Origin: Fibrobacter sp.
Lineage (GTDB): Bacteria > Fibrobacterota > Chitinivibrionia > Chitinivibrionales > Chitinispirillaceae
Assembly: GCA_012523595.1 (NCBI GenBank)
Contig: JAAYIG010000164.1
Location: 1-64,000, forward strand
Direction of reading: 5' to 3'
DNA length: 64,000 nucleotides
The position numbers and the translations under genes were made by a program. Of this stretch, positions 56,806 to 64,000 are shown in pieces; positions within the stretch are counted from its first letter, which is position 1; the number at the start of each line of letters is the position of its first letter. A model generated the notes under the pieces. It did not search any database, was not told the origin of the DNA, and saw nothing but the letters and a program-made list of their open reading frames with translations.

Positions 56806-56833
56806 TTGACAAAACCTCTATAGATTCTATACA
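56806..56833 (+). promoter_or_regulatory. Strong sigma-70-type promoter
   Basis: TTGACA (56806-56811), 16-base spacer, TATACA (56828-56833). Transcription should start near 56840 and read into the NusG-paralogue gene after about 590 nt. The sequence ATACAACGCGA at the -10/start region recurs at 57151. Confidence 0.6.
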
Positions 56834-56839
56834 ACGCGA

Positions 56840-57428
56840 GAAAGATTTGAGGGTTTATAGAGGGTGCATCACGGAATGAGGGCTTGAATGAGTAAAGTCA
56901 CTCCTTTTATGCTCACCTTTCCAAAAAGATTCTAAACCGAATAAGGGTTAGAAAACAGTAAAGCAGGTGGTTCCATTTTCCAGTGAAAATCCGGAACCAT
57001 TGATAGGTAGTATGTCCTATCATTCTGTATTGTTCTGCAAATATGCAGAAGTACTGAATCTGTTAACGTCACAAAAGCGTGGGTGACACCCACGGGGTCA
57101 AAGTGTATCTAAATTTGAAATTAAAAAGGGAAAAATACAGGTTGAGGGGCATACAACGCGACTTGTTTGACCCCTCCCCCTGCTGCATACGGTTCATGAA
57201 AGACATGAACGTACGAGTATCAAGGTTTACAGGTGTGTGTCCGATGTATGACGGGTAATAAGATTCTACAGCTTTTGAGCAGATTTTTCAAGTAGTTAGT
57301 AAACCTTTATGAAGAACAAAGGCTTCCGTTCTTTTTATGGATTCCTGACTTTTAAAACAGCATTTTGAAAAGGTATACCTGATCCATTTGTACCTGTAAA
57401 ATCATAATGGTTTCAGGCATCAAAGAAA
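56840..57428 (+). promoter_or_regulatory. Long structured 5' leader of the NusG-paralogue cluster
   Basis: No gene is visible. Strong hairpins: GGTTCC-ATTTTC/GAAAAT-GGAACC at 56969-56998, TGATAGG/CCTATCA at 57001-57022, CGTGGGTG/CACCCACG at 57078-57094, and a long-range stem GGGGTCAAA (57094-57102) with TTTGACCCC (57166-57174). Leaders with hairpins upstream of LoaP/RfaH-type genes serve as antitermination recruitment sites. No Escherichia-type ops element is recognised. Confidence 0.5.
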
Positions 57429-57995
57429 ATGGGCATCATTTCTTACAAAGATAATCCACCCATATGTAATCTGGATCGCCCGATTATTGAATCTGAAGGT
57501 ACATGGTGGATTGCAAAAGTGAAACCTCGGCAGGAAAAAGCGTTTGCCCGTGACCTTCTGGAGCGCGGGGTCGGGTATTACATTCCCTGTTATATAAAAG
57601 TAACGAGAAGATCGGACGGCAAAAAAAGAAAATCTGTTTTGGTTCTGTTCCCTTCTTATGTTCCTTTCATCTCAGAAAACCCTTACCCTCTGCTGTCTTT
57701 TAACAGAATTTCTACGATTCTTCCTGTTCAGGGACAAACCAAATTCAAAAGACAATTAAACCGGATAGACGTTGTAAACAATAGTGGTATTGAAATAGTG
57801 CCTGTAAGTGCAGGCAATTACTGTATTGGTGATCTTGTAAAAGTAATATCAGGACCTTTAAAAGGGCTGGTTGGCAGAGTAATCCGGAATCAGAGTGGTG
57901 TATCAATTGTATTAGTTGTTGAAGGGATGGGAGCGGCAAGTGTCACTGTAAGTAAATACCAGCTCGAATCAATTTGCAGGAAAAACCTGTTCTGA
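57429..57995 (+). CDS. NusG-paralogue transcription antiterminator (UpxY/LoaP/RfaH-like)
   Basis: 188 residues. The NGN domain (about 25-110) starts WWIAKVKPRQEKAFARDLLE, with YYIPCYIKVTRR and LVLFPSYVPF, as in specialised NusG proteins such as UpxY, TaA and LoaP. The KOW domain (about 135-185) reads GDLVKVISGPLKGLVGRVI. It binds RNA polymerase early in transcription and prevents termination in a long target operon. It is the first gene of the peptide cluster after a structured leader, fitting self-targeted antitermination. Confidence 0.85.
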   Translation: MGIISYKDNPPICNLDRPIIESEGTWWIAKVKPRQEKAFARDLLERGVGYYIPCYIKVTRRSDGKKRKSVLVLFPSYVPFISENPYPLLSFNRISTILPVQGQTKFKRQLNRIDVVNNSGIEIVPVSAGNYCIGDLVKVISGPLKGLVGRVIRNQSGVSIVLVVEGMGAASVTVSKYQLESICRKNLF

Positions 57996-58086
57996 TCATT
58001 GTTATTCTTCAAATAAAGTTACTGGCTGAATTCAAGGTGAACATTAAGTGGATGAAGATATCATAAACCAGGTGTGATGAGGAATT

Positions 58087-58884
58087 ATGAAGGCGCTTAT
58101 TTTAGCTGCAGGAAAGGGCCAGAGGATTCGACCATTAACCGATGAAGTTAACAAGTGTATGCTTTTGTTAAATGGCAAACCCATTCTTGAGCATGTAATT
58201 AATAGATGCTGTCAGGTTCCACTGATTGATGAGATATTGATTGTTGTTGGATATCGTGCTGAGGACATAATCAATCATTTTGGTATCTCCTATTATGGTA
58301 CAAAAATATCATACATAATTCAGCGTGAACAAAAAGGACTGGTTGACGCGATTCTGTGTGCTAAGTCGATGGTAAAGGAGAGTGATTTTTTTCTCCTGTT
58401 AGGTGATGAGATCGTTATCGGTTCAGATTATGAGAAATTTATTTCCGAAGCAATAAAAAAACAGAATATCTGCACAATTGGTGTTGCATCTGTGTCGGAT
58501 ATATCACGGATTAAAAAAACATATACTCTGCTTCATGATGAATCGCGGAGAGTTTTTCGCCTGATTGAAAAACCATCACGGCCACTAAATAATCTGATTG
58601 GTACAGGTCATGTATTGTTCAAGAATGCGATTTTTGATTACATAGAAAGTGTCCTGGTAAATCCGGTCCGGGGTGAGAAGGAACTTCCTGACCTGATTCA
58701 AGCTGCAATTGATGCTGGGGAGAAGGTCTACTATTCCTGTCTTTGTTCTCATTATATAAATGTCAATGAACTGGCAGATTTGAAGCTGGCTGAGGAGCTT
58801 CTGATATCAGACCAATTGAATAGAATCCAGGAAGATTGTACTACTTTGGCAAATATCAGGTATCGTTGCCAGAGAGACAAGTAA
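58087..58884 (+). CDS. Sugar-1-phosphate nucleotidyltransferase-like protein
   Basis: 265 residues. The GT-A-like nucleotide-binding start MKALILAAGKGQRIRPLT is complete, with Lys in NKCMLLLNGKP, GYRAEDI and LLGDEIVI (metal Asp). It makes NDP-sugars or transfers nucleotides to phosphorylated acceptors. No transferase or sugar epimerase neighbours are visible, so within the cluster it may supply a nucleotide-activated group for the peptide product (inference). 91 bases after the antiterminator gene. Confidence 0.85.
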   Translation: MKALILAAGKGQRIRPLTDEVNKCMLLLNGKPILEHVINRCCQVPLIDEILIVVGYRAEDIINHFGISYYGTKISYIIQREQKGLVDAILCAKSMVKESDFFLLLGDEIVIGSDYEKFISEAIKKQNICTIGVASVSDISRIKKTYTLLHDESRRVFRLIEKPSRPLNNLIGTGHVLFKNAIFDYIESVLVNPVRGEKELPDLIQAAIDAGEKVYYSCLCSHYINVNELADLKLAEELLISDQLNRIQEDCTTLANIRYRCQRDK

Positions 58885-58998
58885 ATAGTTCGTAATTGAG
58901 TCAAATATTCTTATTTCCTGGATACTTCATATACAAATAAGAGCTGCCCTTTTTCTGAATAAATCAGGGAAACCAAATATCATCTGTGGCAAATATAA

Positions 58999-60711
58999 AT
59001 GGATAAGATAATTTTACTGGGAAGTCCTGGCGAGCGGCCATTCTATATGCGGACTAATATACCACCGCTTTCATTGGGTGTACTGCAGGGGTATCTCTGT
59101 GAAAATGGATTCGATGTTATAACTCATGACTTGAATGTTTCTCTTGCCAGGCAGATAAAAGAACTGAGCAAGGAAAAATTCACAATCCTGTATGATAAGG
59201 ACCTTTTTCTCAATAGTATCCAATACTCAATGAAAGATCAATATGCTTTTCTCATAAGAAATTTGCTGAGAGACATTGATTTTTCAAATGGAAAACTGGT
59301 TGGTATATCACTTGGTTCGAATTATTCCTTTTTTGAAATACACACAGGGTTTTTGATTGGGAAGTATTTAAAGGAAAAGTATGATACCACAATTGTTTTT
59401 GGTGGAGAAAATGTTGAGTATCTTTATAATTTCAGAGAATCGTTTCATGAGCTCTGGAGTGTAGTATGTAAGATTTTCCCCTACATCATTTTTGGACCGG
59501 GAGAAAAAGTCCTTGTCCGAATGGCAGATTCGCTGTTTAAATCCGGGAAGGTAATTCAACCGGAAGCTCTACCTGGAGTTGTTTATTATAAAGGTGATAT
59601 AGTTGTTTGTAATACACCCGATGAACCATCTCTCACAAGGCCTGATTTTTCTGGTTTACCATTATCTTACTATTCAACATGCATAGATAATTCTATCAGT
59701 GACAACAGAAGGAATAATCTTAACCATATTCAGTTTTTTAAATGGCCCTTTCCCCATACTTTACGTGCATCTGCAATGAACAGATTCTGTTTACCAGTTG
59801 AAAAAAGGAAAGAGGTCACTTTTATCCCCTATATTTTTAACTACAACTGTCCTTTTAAATGTGCTTTCTGTGTGCAAAGTAATCCTTCAAGACATGAAGT
59901 AATTACAAAAGATCCGGAGAATGTTGTTGATGATTTAGCAATAATGATGGAAAAATACAAGTCTCCTTATTTTTACTTTTTCAATAATACATTCAATAGT
60001 TCGCCAGGTTTTGTAAAAAAATTTCATTCCAAGGTTACAAAAAGAAAGTTAGAGTTGTACTGGAGTGATTGTGCGAGGTTTAACAACCTTGATGAAAATC
60101 TTATTCGAATGATGTATGAATCAGGTTGTAGAAAACTAATCTTCGGGTTTGAGACCGGGAGTGAAAAACTACTGCGAATGATAGATAAACGACTCGATCT
60201 TAATCATGCTGAAAAAATAATCAGACTTTGTTCAAAGCAGGGAATCTGGGTTGATCTTGAAGTTATAATCGGTTTGCCACATGAATTTGATGAGGATTTT
60301 CAGGCAACTTGTGATTTTATTCTGAAAAACCGTGAATATATCAATACATTTGCTGTAAATCGCTATTTTGTTGTCCCCTCATCACTGATTGGGATGAAAC
60401 CTGATAAATTCGGGATAGAGTTGATTAAAAACAGGTTTGAATATGAAGACATTCTGAAAAGGAATAAGGATCATTTGTTACAGGTAAGGAATGAACGGTG
60501 TGAAAAAGTCTCAGTCGGTAATTTCAGGATCTATTCCTTCAAAGAGGTAAACGGAAGATCTGTGGAGCAGGTAGAGATTGATACCGACAGGCATTTTTCG
60601 AAGGTAATGGATTTGTATAAGTCATTAAGTATTACTGATGAGATTCGTCTGTGTAATCTTCATCTGGCACTGAAACGAAAACAAAAACAAACGGTTATTG
60701 TATCTGGCTGA
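58999..60711 (+). CDS. B12-binding-domain radical SAM enzyme
   Basis: 570 residues. Residues ~1-210 resemble a cobalamin-binding Rossmann domain as in BchE/PhpK-type proteins (IPPLSLGVLQGYLCENGFDV, LVGISLGSNYS, FGGENVEYL, IFGPGEKVL). The radical SAM core (~275-480) has the cluster motif CPFKCAFC, then GCRKLIFGFETGSEKLL. The C-terminal ~90 residues are unassigned. Such enzymes methylate unactivated carbons or rearrange rings. In this cluster the likely substrate is the peptide encoded next. Weak RBS; 114-base gap upstream. Confidence 0.85.
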   Translation: MDKIILLGSPGERPFYMRTNIPPLSLGVLQGYLCENGFDVITHDLNVSLARQIKELSKEKFTILYDKDLFLNSIQYSMKDQYAFLIRNLLRDIDFSNGKLVGISLGSNYSFFEIHTGFLIGKYLKEKYDTTIVFGGENVEYLYNFRESFHELWSVVCKIFPYIIFGPGEKVLVRMADSLFKSGKVIQPEALPGVVYYKGDIVVCNTPDEPSLTRPDFSGLPLSYYSTCIDNSISDNRRNNLNHIQFFKWPFPHTLRASAMNRFCLPVEKRKEVTFIPYIFNYNCPFKCAFCVQSNPSRHEVITKDPENVVDDLAIMMEKYKSPYFYFFNNTFNSSPGFVKKFHSKVTKRKLELYWSDCARFNNLDENLIRMMYESGCRKLIFGFETGSEKLLRMIDKRLDLNHAEKIIRLCSKQGIWVDLEVIIGLPHEFDEDFQATCDFILKNREYINTFAVNRYFVVPSSLIGMKPDKFGIELIKNRFEYEDILKRNKDHLLQVRNERCEKVSVGNFRIYSFKEVNGRSVEQVEIDTDRHFSKVMDLYKSLSITDEIRLCNLHLALKRKQKQTVIVSG

Positions 60712-60786
60712 TGATTATGCATGGATTTAGGCATAATCGAAGGCAGATTGTTATCAATTCACCAATAGAATTTTCCGGAGGTACAA

Positions 60787-61092
60787 ATGTCTGATATGGA
60801 TTCTCAGATGAATGTGGAAAATGATTCCCCGATAGTAGAGCTTTTCAAACGTGTGGCATGTGAACCAGAATTTAAAAAGCTCCTGATGGAAAACCCGGAT
60901 GAAGCCATAAAGGAGTACGAACTGAATGATGCTCAGATTATCATGGTGAAGAATCTGTCTCCTGAGGATATCGAGAAGCTTACTCTTGATAATCTTGAAG
61001 AATTCTTTTCGGCAGATGCTGCGGTCTACACTCCGGATGAAGGAGAAGATCCGAATGCTGAGATGTATTCTATCGATGATTTTCAGGAGTAA
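60787..61092 (+). CDS. Candidate RiPP precursor peptide
   Basis: 101 residues, strong RBS (GGAGG at 60777-60781). The N-terminal part (~15-60) has the helical pattern VELFKRVACEPEFKKLLMEN and PDEAIKEYELNDAQ, i.e. F-x2-LL-x-N/D-P-x2-A-x2-EY-x-L, as seen in leader peptides of several RiPP families. The C-terminal ~35 residues are acidic with two Tyr (AVYTPDEGEDP, EMYSIDDFQE) and no Cys, Ser/Thr-poor, so a lanthipeptide or sactipeptide is unlikely. Modifications at Tyr, Asp/Glu or Pro are more plausible (inference). A candidate attenuator follows before the next radical SAM gene. Confidence 0.7.
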   Translation: MSDMDSQMNVENDSPIVELFKRVACEPEFKKLLMENPDEAIKEYELNDAQIIMVKNLSPEDIEKLTLDNLEEFFSADAAVYTPDEGEDPNAEMYSIDDFQE

Positions 61093-61099
61093 AATAATA

Positions 61100-61146
61100 A
61101 TAAAAGGGAGCAATTCTTCCCTTTTATACCTCGTGTCATTGCTCCC
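61100..61146 (+). promoter_or_regulatory. Candidate attenuator with two mutually exclusive hairpins
   Basis: Stem 1: ATAAAAGGGA (61100-61109) with TCCCTTTTAT (61118-61127), perfect 10 pairs. Stem 2: GGGAGCAAT (61106-61114) with ATTGCTCCC (61138-61146), perfect 9 pairs. They share GGGA and cannot form together. Stem 1 ends in TTTTAT and could terminate; stem 2 would prevent it. It starts 8 bases after the precursor stop. Confidence 0.5.
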
Positions 61147-61217
61147 TGAATCTCCTGCATCTCTGTAATTCTTTCTGATGTTCCTGAATTTTAGAAAACA
61201 ATAAATGTGGGTATACA

Positions 61218-62168
61218 ATGAAGGTCAAATATGATTCGATTATAGGTGATATACACACTTCTGATGGTGTTCTATATCCGCCAAAGACATTAAGCCTTCA
61301 TCTTACCGATAGATGCAATAGTAAATGCATATTTTGTGGTGAAGATTCACACTCCAGTCTGACTGATACAGTACAGTCAAAACAGCTTATCAGTTTTCTG
61401 GATGAACACGATCCATCTGAATGGACTGCAGTAAATATTCATGGCGGGGAACCGACAATCAGACCTGATTTCATAAACTTGCTTTCCTATATCAGAAAAT
61501 CGGGTTATAAAACCATCATTCTCCAGACAAATGCTTTGATGCTGGGTTTGAAAGAATTTTCCAGACGTGTTCATGAAATCGGAATAGACATTTATACTGT
61601 GGGTTTTCATGCTCATGAATCAAAACTTATGGATACTTTAACCAGGATACCAGATAGTTTTGACAGAATAATAAATGGTATACGATCGATTAAAAAAAAT
61701 GATAACTATTTACGAACAACTACGGTAGCCTGTTCAGGTAATTATAGGCATTTGACTGATATATGTAAAAAAGGAATAGATGAAGGTGTCGATCACATCA
61801 ATATTTCTGCTATGCAGCCAGGTGGAAGCGCTTTCCGAGAATTAGACAATCTGCTAATAGGTTACGATGAATGCCGTCCATACATTGAGCAAGCAATTGA
61901 ATATGCTATTACACATGACAGGAAAGTGACTCTTGAGGGATTTCCATTATGTGCGGTTCCAGCATATTCCCGTTACTATGTAGACTGGTCTAAGCAGAGG
62001 TTGAATGTATTGTATAGAGAAATGAGAATGAGTAACTTCAATGAATTTCTAACTGTAACAACTCGTATAAAAAGCGGGCCTTGTACAAATTGTCCCTGCA
62101 CTGAAAAATGTTGTGGTGTTTATAAAGACTATGTAAAGAAAATCGGGTGGAAAGGAATAGGAATCTAA
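61218..62168 (+). CDS. Radical SAM/SPASM-like peptide-modifying enzyme (first of two paralogues)
   Basis: 316 residues. The [4Fe-4S]-SAM motif is CNSKCIFC at about 34-41, followed by HGGEPTIRPDF (GGE SAM-binding). The C-terminal cysteine cluster PCTNCPCTEKCCGVYKDY, with another Cys in GFPLCAVPAY, suggests an auxiliary SPASM/twitch-like Fe-S cluster. These enzymes make carbon- or thioether-type crosslinks in peptides. It shares the whole architecture with the gene at 62915. Its TAA stop overlaps the next start (TAATG). Confidence 0.85.
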   Translation: MKVKYDSIIGDIHTSDGVLYPPKTLSLHLTDRCNSKCIFCGEDSHSSLTDTVQSKQLISFLDEHDPSEWTAVNIHGGEPTIRPDFINLLSYIRKSGYKTIILQTNALMLGLKEFSRRVHEIGIDIYTVGFHAHESKLMDTLTRIPDSFDRIINGIRSIKKNDNYLRTTTVACSGNYRHLTDICKKGIDEGVDHINISAMQPGGSAFRELDNLLIGYDECRPYIEQAIEYAITHDRKVTLEGFPLCAVPAYSRYYVDWSKQRLNVLYREMRMSNFNEFLTVTTRIKSGPCTNCPCTEKCCGVYKDYVKKIGWKGIGI

Positions 62169-62899
62169 TGTCAAATATCAACACCAATGTGGAAGACATA
62201 ATTCCGTTTTCAAAAGATGAATTTGAGATTTTACTGGCCTTGTCCATGGGTATGAAGAGTAATTCAAGGTCTCGTATTTTGAATGCTCTTCAAAAAAAGC
62301 ATGAAAGTAACCCTTCAGATGAGAAATCAGCCATTTCTCTGGCAATTGCAATATATCTGCTTATCGGTCCTAAGACAGAGGCAATAGAAAGAGCCAAAGC
62401 TCAGGTCAGCGGTTACATGATTATGAGCGAGTGTTTGAAAATTCATAGTACCTGGTGGTTGCCAAGGTATCTTAGAAGTGAAATTTCATTGGGAATTCCA
62501 GATGGGCTTGCCGAAATGTCATCGGGTGTTCATTCAATAGGCGCTTCAATTGTAAAGCCATATGAAGATAGAGAAGTGTTGATAGAGATGCAGGGAAGGT
62601 CAGTATATTCAGAACCATATTTCATGTGTCCTTATATGGGGCAGGTAAGAGAAATGCTTGGCAGCGGGAATATTGATGGTGCATATAAAATGTTCAAAAG
62701 AGCATGTGACAAGGTCGAATGCAAACCGACTTATCATACTCGACTGTTAAGCCAGGTGTTTCTCGATGTAATTATAATTTTAAAGAGATTATGCCTGGAG
62801 GAATTTGCGCTTCAGGTCCAGCAAAAGGCAATGACAGTTTTCCCCAAATCCCGCTCAATAGCTGAAAGTATTAATATGACTTATACCTTACTTACATAA
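62168..62899 (+). CDS. Helical cluster protein of unknown function
   Basis: 243 residues from the ATG at 62168, overlapping the preceding stop as TAATG, i.e. translationally coupled. Mostly helical, TPR-like in feel (EEFALQVQQKAMTVFPKSRS), with a region of conserved-looking residues (VYSEPYFMCPYMGQVREML). No metal or cofactor motif. Position between the two radical SAM genes suggests a partner or peptide-presenting protein. Not recognised. Confidence 0.65.
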   Translation: MSNINTNVEDIIPFSKDEFEILLALSMGMKSNSRSRILNALQKKHESNPSDEKSAISLAIAIYLLIGPKTEAIERAKAQVSGYMIMSECLKIHSTWWLPRYLRSEISLGIPDGLAEMSSGVHSIGASIVKPYEDREVLIEMQGRSVYSEPYFMCPYMGQVREMLGSGNIDGAYKMFKRACDKVECKPTYHTRLLSQVFLDVIIILKRLCLEEFALQVQQKAMTVFPKSRSIAESINMTYTLLT

Positions 62900-62914
62900 A
62901 GGACTAATTTAATT

Positions 62915-63865
62915 ATGCAGAATGCAAAAAAAATGTTGAGTATTCATACTACTGATTTATGTAATAACAGATGCATATTTTGTATTGTCGATTCTCCTTG
63001 CCAGACTAAACAACAGGTAAGCCGCGAAAAAATAGATGCCTTTCTGGAGGAAAACCGTGATTCAGGGTATGTGGCTGTGAATTTACATGGTGGGGAGACA
63101 ACAACAAGGCGGGATGTTCTTGATTTGCTGGAGAAAATACAGGAATGTGGATATTCTGAGATCATTCTTCAGACAAATGCCCGCAAGTTATCAGATATCG
63201 ATTTTGCCAGAAAGGTAATTGAACGGGGAGTATGCCTTGTAGTAGTGTCGATGCATGGCAAAGACAGTGCAACTCATGATTCTATAACAAGGGTCAGTGG
63301 GAGTTTTGAACAGGCGATGCAGGGTATCCGCAATGTAAAAACACTGGGTGCATCAGTACGGACCAACACTGTTGTATCAAAGATGAATCAGGGTCAGATT
63401 CAGGAGATTGCATCTTTATTGATAAATGAAGGAGTTGATCATATTAACATTTCAGCTCTACATACAGCCGGTACAGCTTATCGTAATTTTGATCAGGTAA
63501 CACCCAGATATCGCGATATAGAATCTGAAGTTGTTGCTACTGCAGTAATGGTTGATAAAGCAAATGTACAAATTACCTTAGAGGGTTTCCCGTATTGCTG
63601 TATAAGAGGAGCAGAAAACTATGTGATCGAATGGGAGAACGAACAATTCAAAATGTTGTTTAGGTCGTTTGTTTATGATGATTATTCCGAGATGATGGAT
63701 CGGATGCATCGGGTTCATGGTACTCCATGCATGAAATGTGAACGTAAATCGATTTGTGGCGGAGTCTATAAGGAATATGCTGCAAAAATTGGGTGGAGTG
63801 AGATCGGTTATAATTATGGAATAAATATGCCCAGAGTGGAGGATGTCAATGCGATTGCCAGATAG
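62915..63865 (+). CDS. Radical SAM/SPASM-like peptide-modifying enzyme (second paralogue)
   Basis: 316 residues, same length as its paralogue at 61218. SAM motif CNNRCIFC near 12-19, HGGETTTRRDV, then the C-terminal GFPYCCIRGAENY and PCMKCERKSICGGVYKEY cysteine cluster. The two enzymes probably perform related but different steps on the precursor. The start codon follows the helical protein by 15 bases; the next gene's start overlaps its 3' end by 17 bases. Confidence 0.85.
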   Translation: MQNAKKMLSIHTTDLCNNRCIFCIVDSPCQTKQQVSREKIDAFLEENRDSGYVAVNLHGGETTTRRDVLDLLEKIQECGYSEIILQTNARKLSDIDFARKVIERGVCLVVVSMHGKDSATHDSITRVSGSFEQAMQGIRNVKTLGASVRTNTVVSKMNQGQIQEIASLLINEGVDHINISALHTAGTAYRNFDQVTPRYRDIESEVVATAVMVDKANVQITLEGFPYCCIRGAENYVIEWENEQFKMLFRSFVYDDYSEMMDRMHRVHGTPCMKCERKSICGGVYKEYAAKIGWSEIGYNYGINMPRVEDVNAIAR

Positions 63866-64000
63866 TAAAGATGACACGATATGGAAGACAATCAGGTTTG
63901 CTGCGAGGCAATCATTCCCGGAGAAATTTGCCGCAAATTTGCTTCAGCGTGCGGAAAATGACACTGAAAACGCTGAGTATTGGTATGAGTATGGTCTGTG
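63849..64000 (+). CDS. Second small helical cluster protein, truncated by the window edge
   Basis: An ATG at 63849 overlaps the radical SAM gene by 17 bases. The frame is open to base 64000 (50 codons seen). It begins MRLPDSKDDTIWKTIRFAAR and continues FAANLLQRAENDTENAEYWY, a TPR/Sel1-like helical pattern. Its position repeats the radical SAM-helical protein order seen upstream. Confidence 0.6.
   Translation, partial: MRLPDSKDDTIWKTIRFAARQSFPEKFAANLLQRAENDTENAEYWYEYGL

Follow-up and report, generated by a model that had tools for sequence, protein, structure and literature searches.

A predicted glycosylated, radical SAM-modified RiPP pathway of the nitrile-hydratase-like leader peptide kind in a Fibrobacter genome

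A long co-directional gene cluster in a Fibrobacter sp. contig probably encodes a glycosylated, radical SAM-modified RiPP pathway of the nitrile-hydratase-like leader peptide (NHLP) kind, a reading to which we give a probability of about two in three. Its precursor is flanked by radical SAM enzymes, nucleotidyltransferases and DUF6365 proteins, the latter predicted to be glycosyltransferases, and the system appears to combine glycosylation with radical chemistry rather than to rely on the latter alone.

The window, i.e., the whole stretch of DNA analyzed (64,000 nucleotides), represents the first 64 kb of a contig of ~89 kb. The cluster forms a plus-strand run from 57429 to 86564 (contig coordinates; ~29 kb), is opened by a NusG paralogue, and continues for ~22 kb beyond base 64000, ending near 86.6 kb of this contig. 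Gaps within the run are mostly shorter than 130 bp or replaced by overlaps, and the largest (242 bp) lies 5' of the gene designated rSAM_C. All open reading frames listed in the original prediction proved to be real, on the plus strand and in the order given, from the NusG paralogue to the second helical protein; no identifiable cluster part was found in the 623 bp between the start of its region and position 57429. The components are as follows.

57429..57995, plus strand: UpxY/RfaH-like NusG paralogue; NusG and KOW Pfam matches above cut-off
58087..58884, plus strand: sugar-1-phosphate nucleotidyltransferase; PF00483, E 1.6e-35
58999..60711, plus strand: B12rSAM1, B12-radical-SAM-like enzyme; PF04055, E 7.8e-14
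60787..61092, plus strand: RiPP precursor, 101 aa
61085..61217, plus strand: stem-loop region, covering the 125-bp gap 3' of the precursor
61218..62168, plus strand: rSAM_A, HxsC/MoaA-like radical SAM enzyme; PF04055, E 2.7e-14
62147..62899, plus strand: helA, helical (TPR-like) partner protein; 22-bp overlap with rSAM_A
62915..63865, plus strand: rSAM_B, HxsC/MoaA-like radical SAM enzyme; PF04055, E 8.7e-18
63843..64526, plus strand: helB, second helical partner; crosses the window edge at 64000
from 64544 and from 65759, plus strand, beyond the window: two DUF6365 proteins
from 67003, plus strand, beyond the window: class III aminotransferase
from 68461, plus strand, beyond the window: u311, beta-rich protein without a family
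69403-71927, plus strand, beyond the window: ABC-2 exporter
72678-74638, plus strand, beyond the window: MacB/FtsX-like exporter
from 74687, plus strand, beyond the window: LolA-like protein
75497-78152, plus strand, beyond the window: outer-membrane-type proteins
from 78395, plus strand, beyond the window: rSAM_C, further radical SAM enzyme
from 79385, plus strand, beyond the window: GlpA-like FAD enzyme (flavoprotein)
from 80663, plus strand, beyond the window: class V, PhnW-like aminotransferase
from 81791, plus strand, beyond the window: NTase2, second nucleotidyltransferase
from 82675, plus strand, beyond the window: third DUF6365 protein
from 83987, plus strand, beyond the window: B12rSAM2, second B12-type radical SAM enzyme
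85605-86564, plus strand, beyond the window: family-2 glycosyltransferase (GT), closing the run

Extension past base 64000 thus supplied exporters and additional enzymes, and neither a protease nor a Cys-peptidase exporter, frequent but not obligatory in RiPP pathways, was found among the annotated genes of the operon. The NusG paralogue matches the UpxY model NF033644 at E 2.3e-18, below the curated cut-off; paralogues of this kind are the subject of the review PMC7819879. The helical protein helA has a 25% match in a Clostridiaceae cluster and no informative family, and helB has a 31% match to the helB of that Clostridiaceae cluster (L006). The stem-loop region has a minimum free energy of -29.3 kcal/mol (z -2.35), with an 11-bp stem at ~61100-61127 plus an outer stem; it also holds a terminator-like match, the total count of such matches not being above that in shuffles. 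The hairpin 3' of the precursor may be a leaky terminator or a stabilizing hairpin that sets precursor dosage.

Judged by its sequence, the 101-aa protein is an NHLP RiPP precursor, composed of an NHLP leader (residues about 16-65), a conserved block (63-84) and a variable acidic tail (85-101). The leader-like helix first noticed in the sequence turned out to be a genuine NHLP leader: the NHLP-clan family NF038399 was matched by all seven orthologues tested (best E 1.2e-13), while the window copy reaches E 4.4e-7 and 29.9 bits, under the 40-bit curated cut-off. With the Frankia_peptide family PF14407, the best orthologue scores E 1.2e-7 and the window copy only E 0.066, its 13.9 bits falling short of the cut-off of 48. 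The best PDB match of a profile of the seven orthologues is 6lk7, listed as a nitrile hydratase alpha chain, which we take to be the leader of the Pseudomonas Os17 precursor; further matches are nitrile hydratase alpha subunits and the NHLP 9cjx, and all of them, 6lk7 included, are weak (E of at least 0.006). In all five precursor pairs compared, dN was below dS (ratio about 0.03-0.5), which identifies the precursor as a real coding gene.

The precursor has nine orthologues, all inside syntenic clusters, and the ten precursors align end to end. The pentapeptide A79-V80-Y81-T82-P83 (AVYTP) is invariant in 10/10, and mean identity to the commonest residue is 65% in the leader, 80% across residues 63-84 and 44% in the tail. 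The acidic, Tyr-containing C-terminus had been proposed as the substrate; this assignment as the core was rejected, since the tail varies and its Tyr is absent from four orthologues (L011, G582, G758 and G799). The AVYTP motif upstream of it is the likely modification target, as far as conservation can indicate.

To establish the distribution of the system, 84,980 species genomes were scanned for the rSAM_A/B pair, giving 79 loci. An NHLP open reading frame, detected with an NHLP profile, lies close to 9/9 loci with rSAM_B identity of at least 42% and to 0/70 weaker ones (Fisher p 5e-12), some of the 70 being short or truncated. AVYTP precursors occur in six of the nine loci: Clostridiaceae M8S5, Micromonospora, Virgisporangium, Catellatospora, Rhizohabitans and a Clostridia MAG. 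When 391 genomes from the class to which the Clostridiaceae hit belongs were searched, three more AVYTP clusters appeared, so that ten are available, one from this genome and nine from Clostridia and Actinomycetota; Micromonospora sonchi, Catellatospora bangladeshensis and Rhizohabitans arisaemae are named isolates carrying the motif. The precursor, rSAM_B, at least two DUF6365 genes and a nucleotidyltransferase are present in 10/10 AVYTP clusters, as is u311 (the L011 copy only at 20-24%), with an ABC ATPase in 9/10 and a B12-radical SAM enzyme in 8/10. The NHLP-DUF6365-rSAM_B set recurs with other cores in Acidobacteriota, Elusimicrobiota and Chloroflexota, where the loci also carry a nucleotidyltransferase and rSAM_C relatives, and two of the NHLP peptides have signal-like N-termini. 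The smallest version, rSAM_C-NHLP-NTase-DUF6365-rSAM_B, was found in Chloroflexota (L014).

A short precursor gene with a conserved core is therefore kept beside modifying enzymes, and the RiPP-type cluster of the original prediction is borne out by the NHLP orthologues and their conserved radical SAM neighbors. The same comparison bears on a quite different explanation, under which the locus makes a surface or capsule glycan and the small protein serves as some unrelated subunit or regulator. Capsule loci are the usual targets of UpxY-type antiterminators, and the operon holds a family-2 GT, outer-membrane genes and nucleotidyltransferases; however, the UpxY-type factor is not conserved in the other clusters, and the precursor, radical SAM and GT genes persist without it in the relatives from Actinomycetota and Clostridia. 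As the precursor also belongs to a RiPP leader clan, we regard a capsule locus as highly improbable.

The enzymes rSAM_A and rSAM_B share 37% identity. An alignment of 12 relatives shows no variation in the CxxxCxxC motif or in four more cysteines (in rSAM_B, C228, C272, C275 and C281), a pattern consistent with one auxiliary Fe-S cluster. The initial description called both SPASM-like; SPASM (PF13186) gave no Pfam match in either protein, and the extra cysteines point to one auxiliary cluster instead. Orthologues of rSAM_B are found at 45-55% identity in the nine other AVYTP clusters and at 42-45% in three more distant ones; a clear orthologue of rSAM_A is confined to the Clostridiaceae sister cluster (L006). 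In the tree, rSAM_A of this genome groups with rSAM_A of L006 (100/100) and rSAM_B with its rSAM_B (91/95); the Fibrobacter and Clostridiaceae genomes accordingly have the duplicated pair in common.

Pfam detects the B12-binding domain of B12rSAM1 only weakly and below cut-off (E 0.016), and cobalamin use is accordingly assigned by family resemblance; the radical SAM CxxxCxxC motif is present in all orthologues. These occur at 36-44% identity in 7/9 other AVYTP clusters. None was found in the whole Virgisporangium genome or in the Clostridia MAG genome (L011), where the radical SAM domain alone matches weakly, and the enzyme is thus ruled out as a defining part. Of the suggestion that up to three radical enzymes modify the peptide, the conserved neighborhood holds, while the three do not constitute a defining set, given the absence of the B12-type enzyme from two clusters.

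Among solved structures, the sugar-modifying enzyme AprD4 is closest to B12rSAM1, and the many matches of rSAM_B include the sugar enzyme BlsE (E 2.7e-22); sugars are therefore a possible substrate of the radical enzymes. The peptide might then be a scaffold, the radical enzymes working on a free or peptide-attached sugar and the NHLP protein serving as a carrier that releases a small saccharide- or amino-acid-derived product. PQQ and mycofactocin are both cut from peptides, and the mycofactocin core contains Val-Tyr, which also lies within AVYTP. Two nucleotidyltransferases, three DUF6365 proteins, two aminotransferases and a GlpA-like enzyme in one operon would suit such a product; yet the class V aminotransferase and the GlpA-like enzyme are confined to this cluster, and the class III aminotransferase occurs in just one other. 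Furthermore, members of the rSAM_B family also accompany NHLP peptides whose cores are quite different, which suits peptide recognition. We consider a scaffold role unlikely, although it is the alternative that we weigh most seriously.

The glycosylation part of the preferred pathway was approached through structure prediction of DUF6365, as a sequence search against the PDB returned no match. The model of the L006 orthologue has a pLDDT of 88, and the 50 PDB matches listed for it are all GT-B type glycosyltransferases or designs derived from them (best E 7e-13; TM about 0.6). On the basis of these matches, DUF6365 is a predicted GT-B glycosyltransferase, assigned by a fold from which donor and acceptor are not readable. 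A non-glycosylated radical RiPP, with DUF6365 proteins acting in binding or tailoring and the nucleotidyltransferases serving another pathway, would be compatible with the breadth of this fold superfamily, and no biochemical test of DUF6365 was found in the open-access literature. Against it stand the high confidence of the model, the uniformity of the listed PDB matches and the presence of a nucleotidyltransferase and DUF6365 with the precursor in every cluster, the smallest included; such a pathway therefore appears improbable. The nucleotidyltransferase of the window is not recognizably orthologous to those of the other clusters, each of which has one.

Several other candidate parts were considered and rejected. 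A UDPGT-type glycosyltransferase is present in L006 and, with weak identity, in Actinomycetota, and its absence from this genome excludes it as a shared part. The beta-rich u311 model (pLDDT 72.5) finds its best PDB match in the lipid carrier LmcA, with a TM of 0.31-0.36 that is too weak to name it. Phosphonate chemistry for the second half of the operon, suggested by the PhnW-like aminotransferase, was discarded because PEP mutase (TIGR02320) is unmatched in the genome.

The precursor (at high score), rSAM_B (E below 1e-25) and DUF6365 (over cut-off) were sought in 151 genomes, 150 of them relatives, and were found in this genome alone; all of its DUF6365 copies sit in the operon. Because the 150 relatives lack all three, the cluster was probably acquired horizontally, which is the simplest reading. 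Its G+C content is 38-42%, versus 44% across the first 54 kb of the window. Of 399 genomes from the order that contains the Micromonospora hit, two encode DUF6365, one within an NHLP locus and the other elsewhere, with no NHLP open reading frame detected near the gene.

In the glycosylated, radical SAM-modified pathway that we favor, the UpxY-like factor would allow RNA polymerase to read through the ~29-kb operon by antitermination, and the folded NHLP leader of the 101-aa precursor would recruit the enzymes, as other NHLP systems suggest. Together, rSAM_B, rSAM_A and the B12-radical-SAM-like enzyme would modify the conserved stretch that AVYTP closes; given its conservation, Tyr81 or a neighboring residue is the most likely site. 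The nucleotidyltransferases would supply activated sugars, the DUF6365 proteins may put them on Tyr, Thr or Ser side chains of the core, and the ABC-2 and MacB/LolA-like exporters would carry the product out. More broadly, we see an even chance that glycosylated radical SAM RiPPs form a new class, present in five or more phyla, whose DUF6365 glycosyltransferases and HxsC-like radical SAM enzyme act together on NHLP precursors; in the AVYTP branch, the Tyr-centered pentapeptide would be remodeled, perhaps to give a small product that is set free. The cluster provides DUF6365, formerly unassigned, with a likely role and a likely substrate, and AVYTP, invariant across Clostridia, Actinomycetota and this organism, offers a precise target for co-expression tests.

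No published description of an NHLP/rSAM_B/DUF6365 cluster was found in the open-access literature, and the set matches none of the systems compared here, in agreement with the initial view that the combination lies outside described classes. It resembles the Os1348-type NHLP RiPPs (Pseudomonas pfl/pos; PMC12636437) in the folded nitrile-hydratase-like leader, the long precursor and the lack of an obvious protease; according to the same source, the pfl cluster also appears to lack a leader peptidase. The pfl/pos systems differ in their HEXXH oxygenase, nitroreductase-domain enzyme and other cores, and the passages that describe them do not include the rSAM_B/DUF6365/nucleotidyltransferase set (PMC12636437). 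A link to aminopyruvatide-type (apy) RiPPs is provided by ApyD, the nearest NCBIfam of B12rSAM1, but the match covers the radical SAM domain only and its 89.6 bits lie under the cut-off of 750, and no MNIO-type protein was found among the annotated genes of the operon. Similarly, rSAM_A and rSAM_B score best in NCBIfam with HxsC4/HxsC, whereas these scores of 122-145 bits, against 500 for HxsC4, rule out membership in the His-Xaa-Ser (Hxs) systems, the HxsA-type His-Xaa-Ser peptide is unmatched, and the precursor is of the NHLP kind. Mycofactocin shares a radical SAM-modified peptide, Val-Tyr and glycosylation; in contrast, AVYTP is internal and follows an NHLP leader, and the mycofactocin radical SAM model matches weakly, below cut-off. 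To our knowledge, mycofactocin is the only known pairing of radical chemistry and glycosylation on ribosomal peptides. The NHLP precursor clan itself is known; it is plausible that the present clusters will constitute a new RiPP class once their chemistry is known, and they already provide a testable class of ribosomal peptides in which the two are paired.

Beyond the window, the Fibrobacter operon encodes three consecutive enzymes:

C164 79385-82678 (L002 3386-6679), GlpA-like flavoprotein, PhnW-like aminotransferase and nucleotidyltransferase

Despite the PhnW-like aminotransferase, PEP mutase is absent from the genome; we speculate that the trio could yield an activated amino-alcohol, e.g., CDP-serinol. 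Single enzyme genes in two clostridial AVYTP clusters also stood out:

L006 18822-19955, macrolide-family (MGT) glycosyltransferase, above the curated MGT cut-off (Clostridiaceae)
L113 7987-9825, NodU/TobZ-like carbamoyltransferase adjoining the precursor (Clostridia MAG)

The carbamoyltransferase is in line with sugar decoration. The glycosyltransferase adjoins exporter genes and could serve in self-protection, which, if so, would suggest a bioactive cluster product.

Further peptides with nitrile-hydratase-like leaders (NHLP) were located as follows:

L114 8692-8913, 73-aa NHLP-type peptide ending in MRAVYGCFGAY
L114 845-2554, carbamoyltransferase-like gene upstream of this peptide
L112 8533-8835 and 8917-9255, minus strand, tandem NHLP-type pair
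L012 543-1094 and L013 7523-7921, NHLP peptides following signal- or TAT-like N-terminal segments

The contig that carries the AVYTP cluster L011 also encodes the 73-aa peptide, which adjoins a B12-type radical SAM-like gene. The tandem pair, with differing Ser/His/Tyr-rich cores, shares genome G582 with an AVYTP cluster, and an rSAM_B-like gene (30% identity) lies ~6 kb away. The L012 and L013 peptides adjoin DUF6365 (predicted glycosyltransferase) and rSAM_B relatives; such N-terminal segments are unusual in RiPP precursors.
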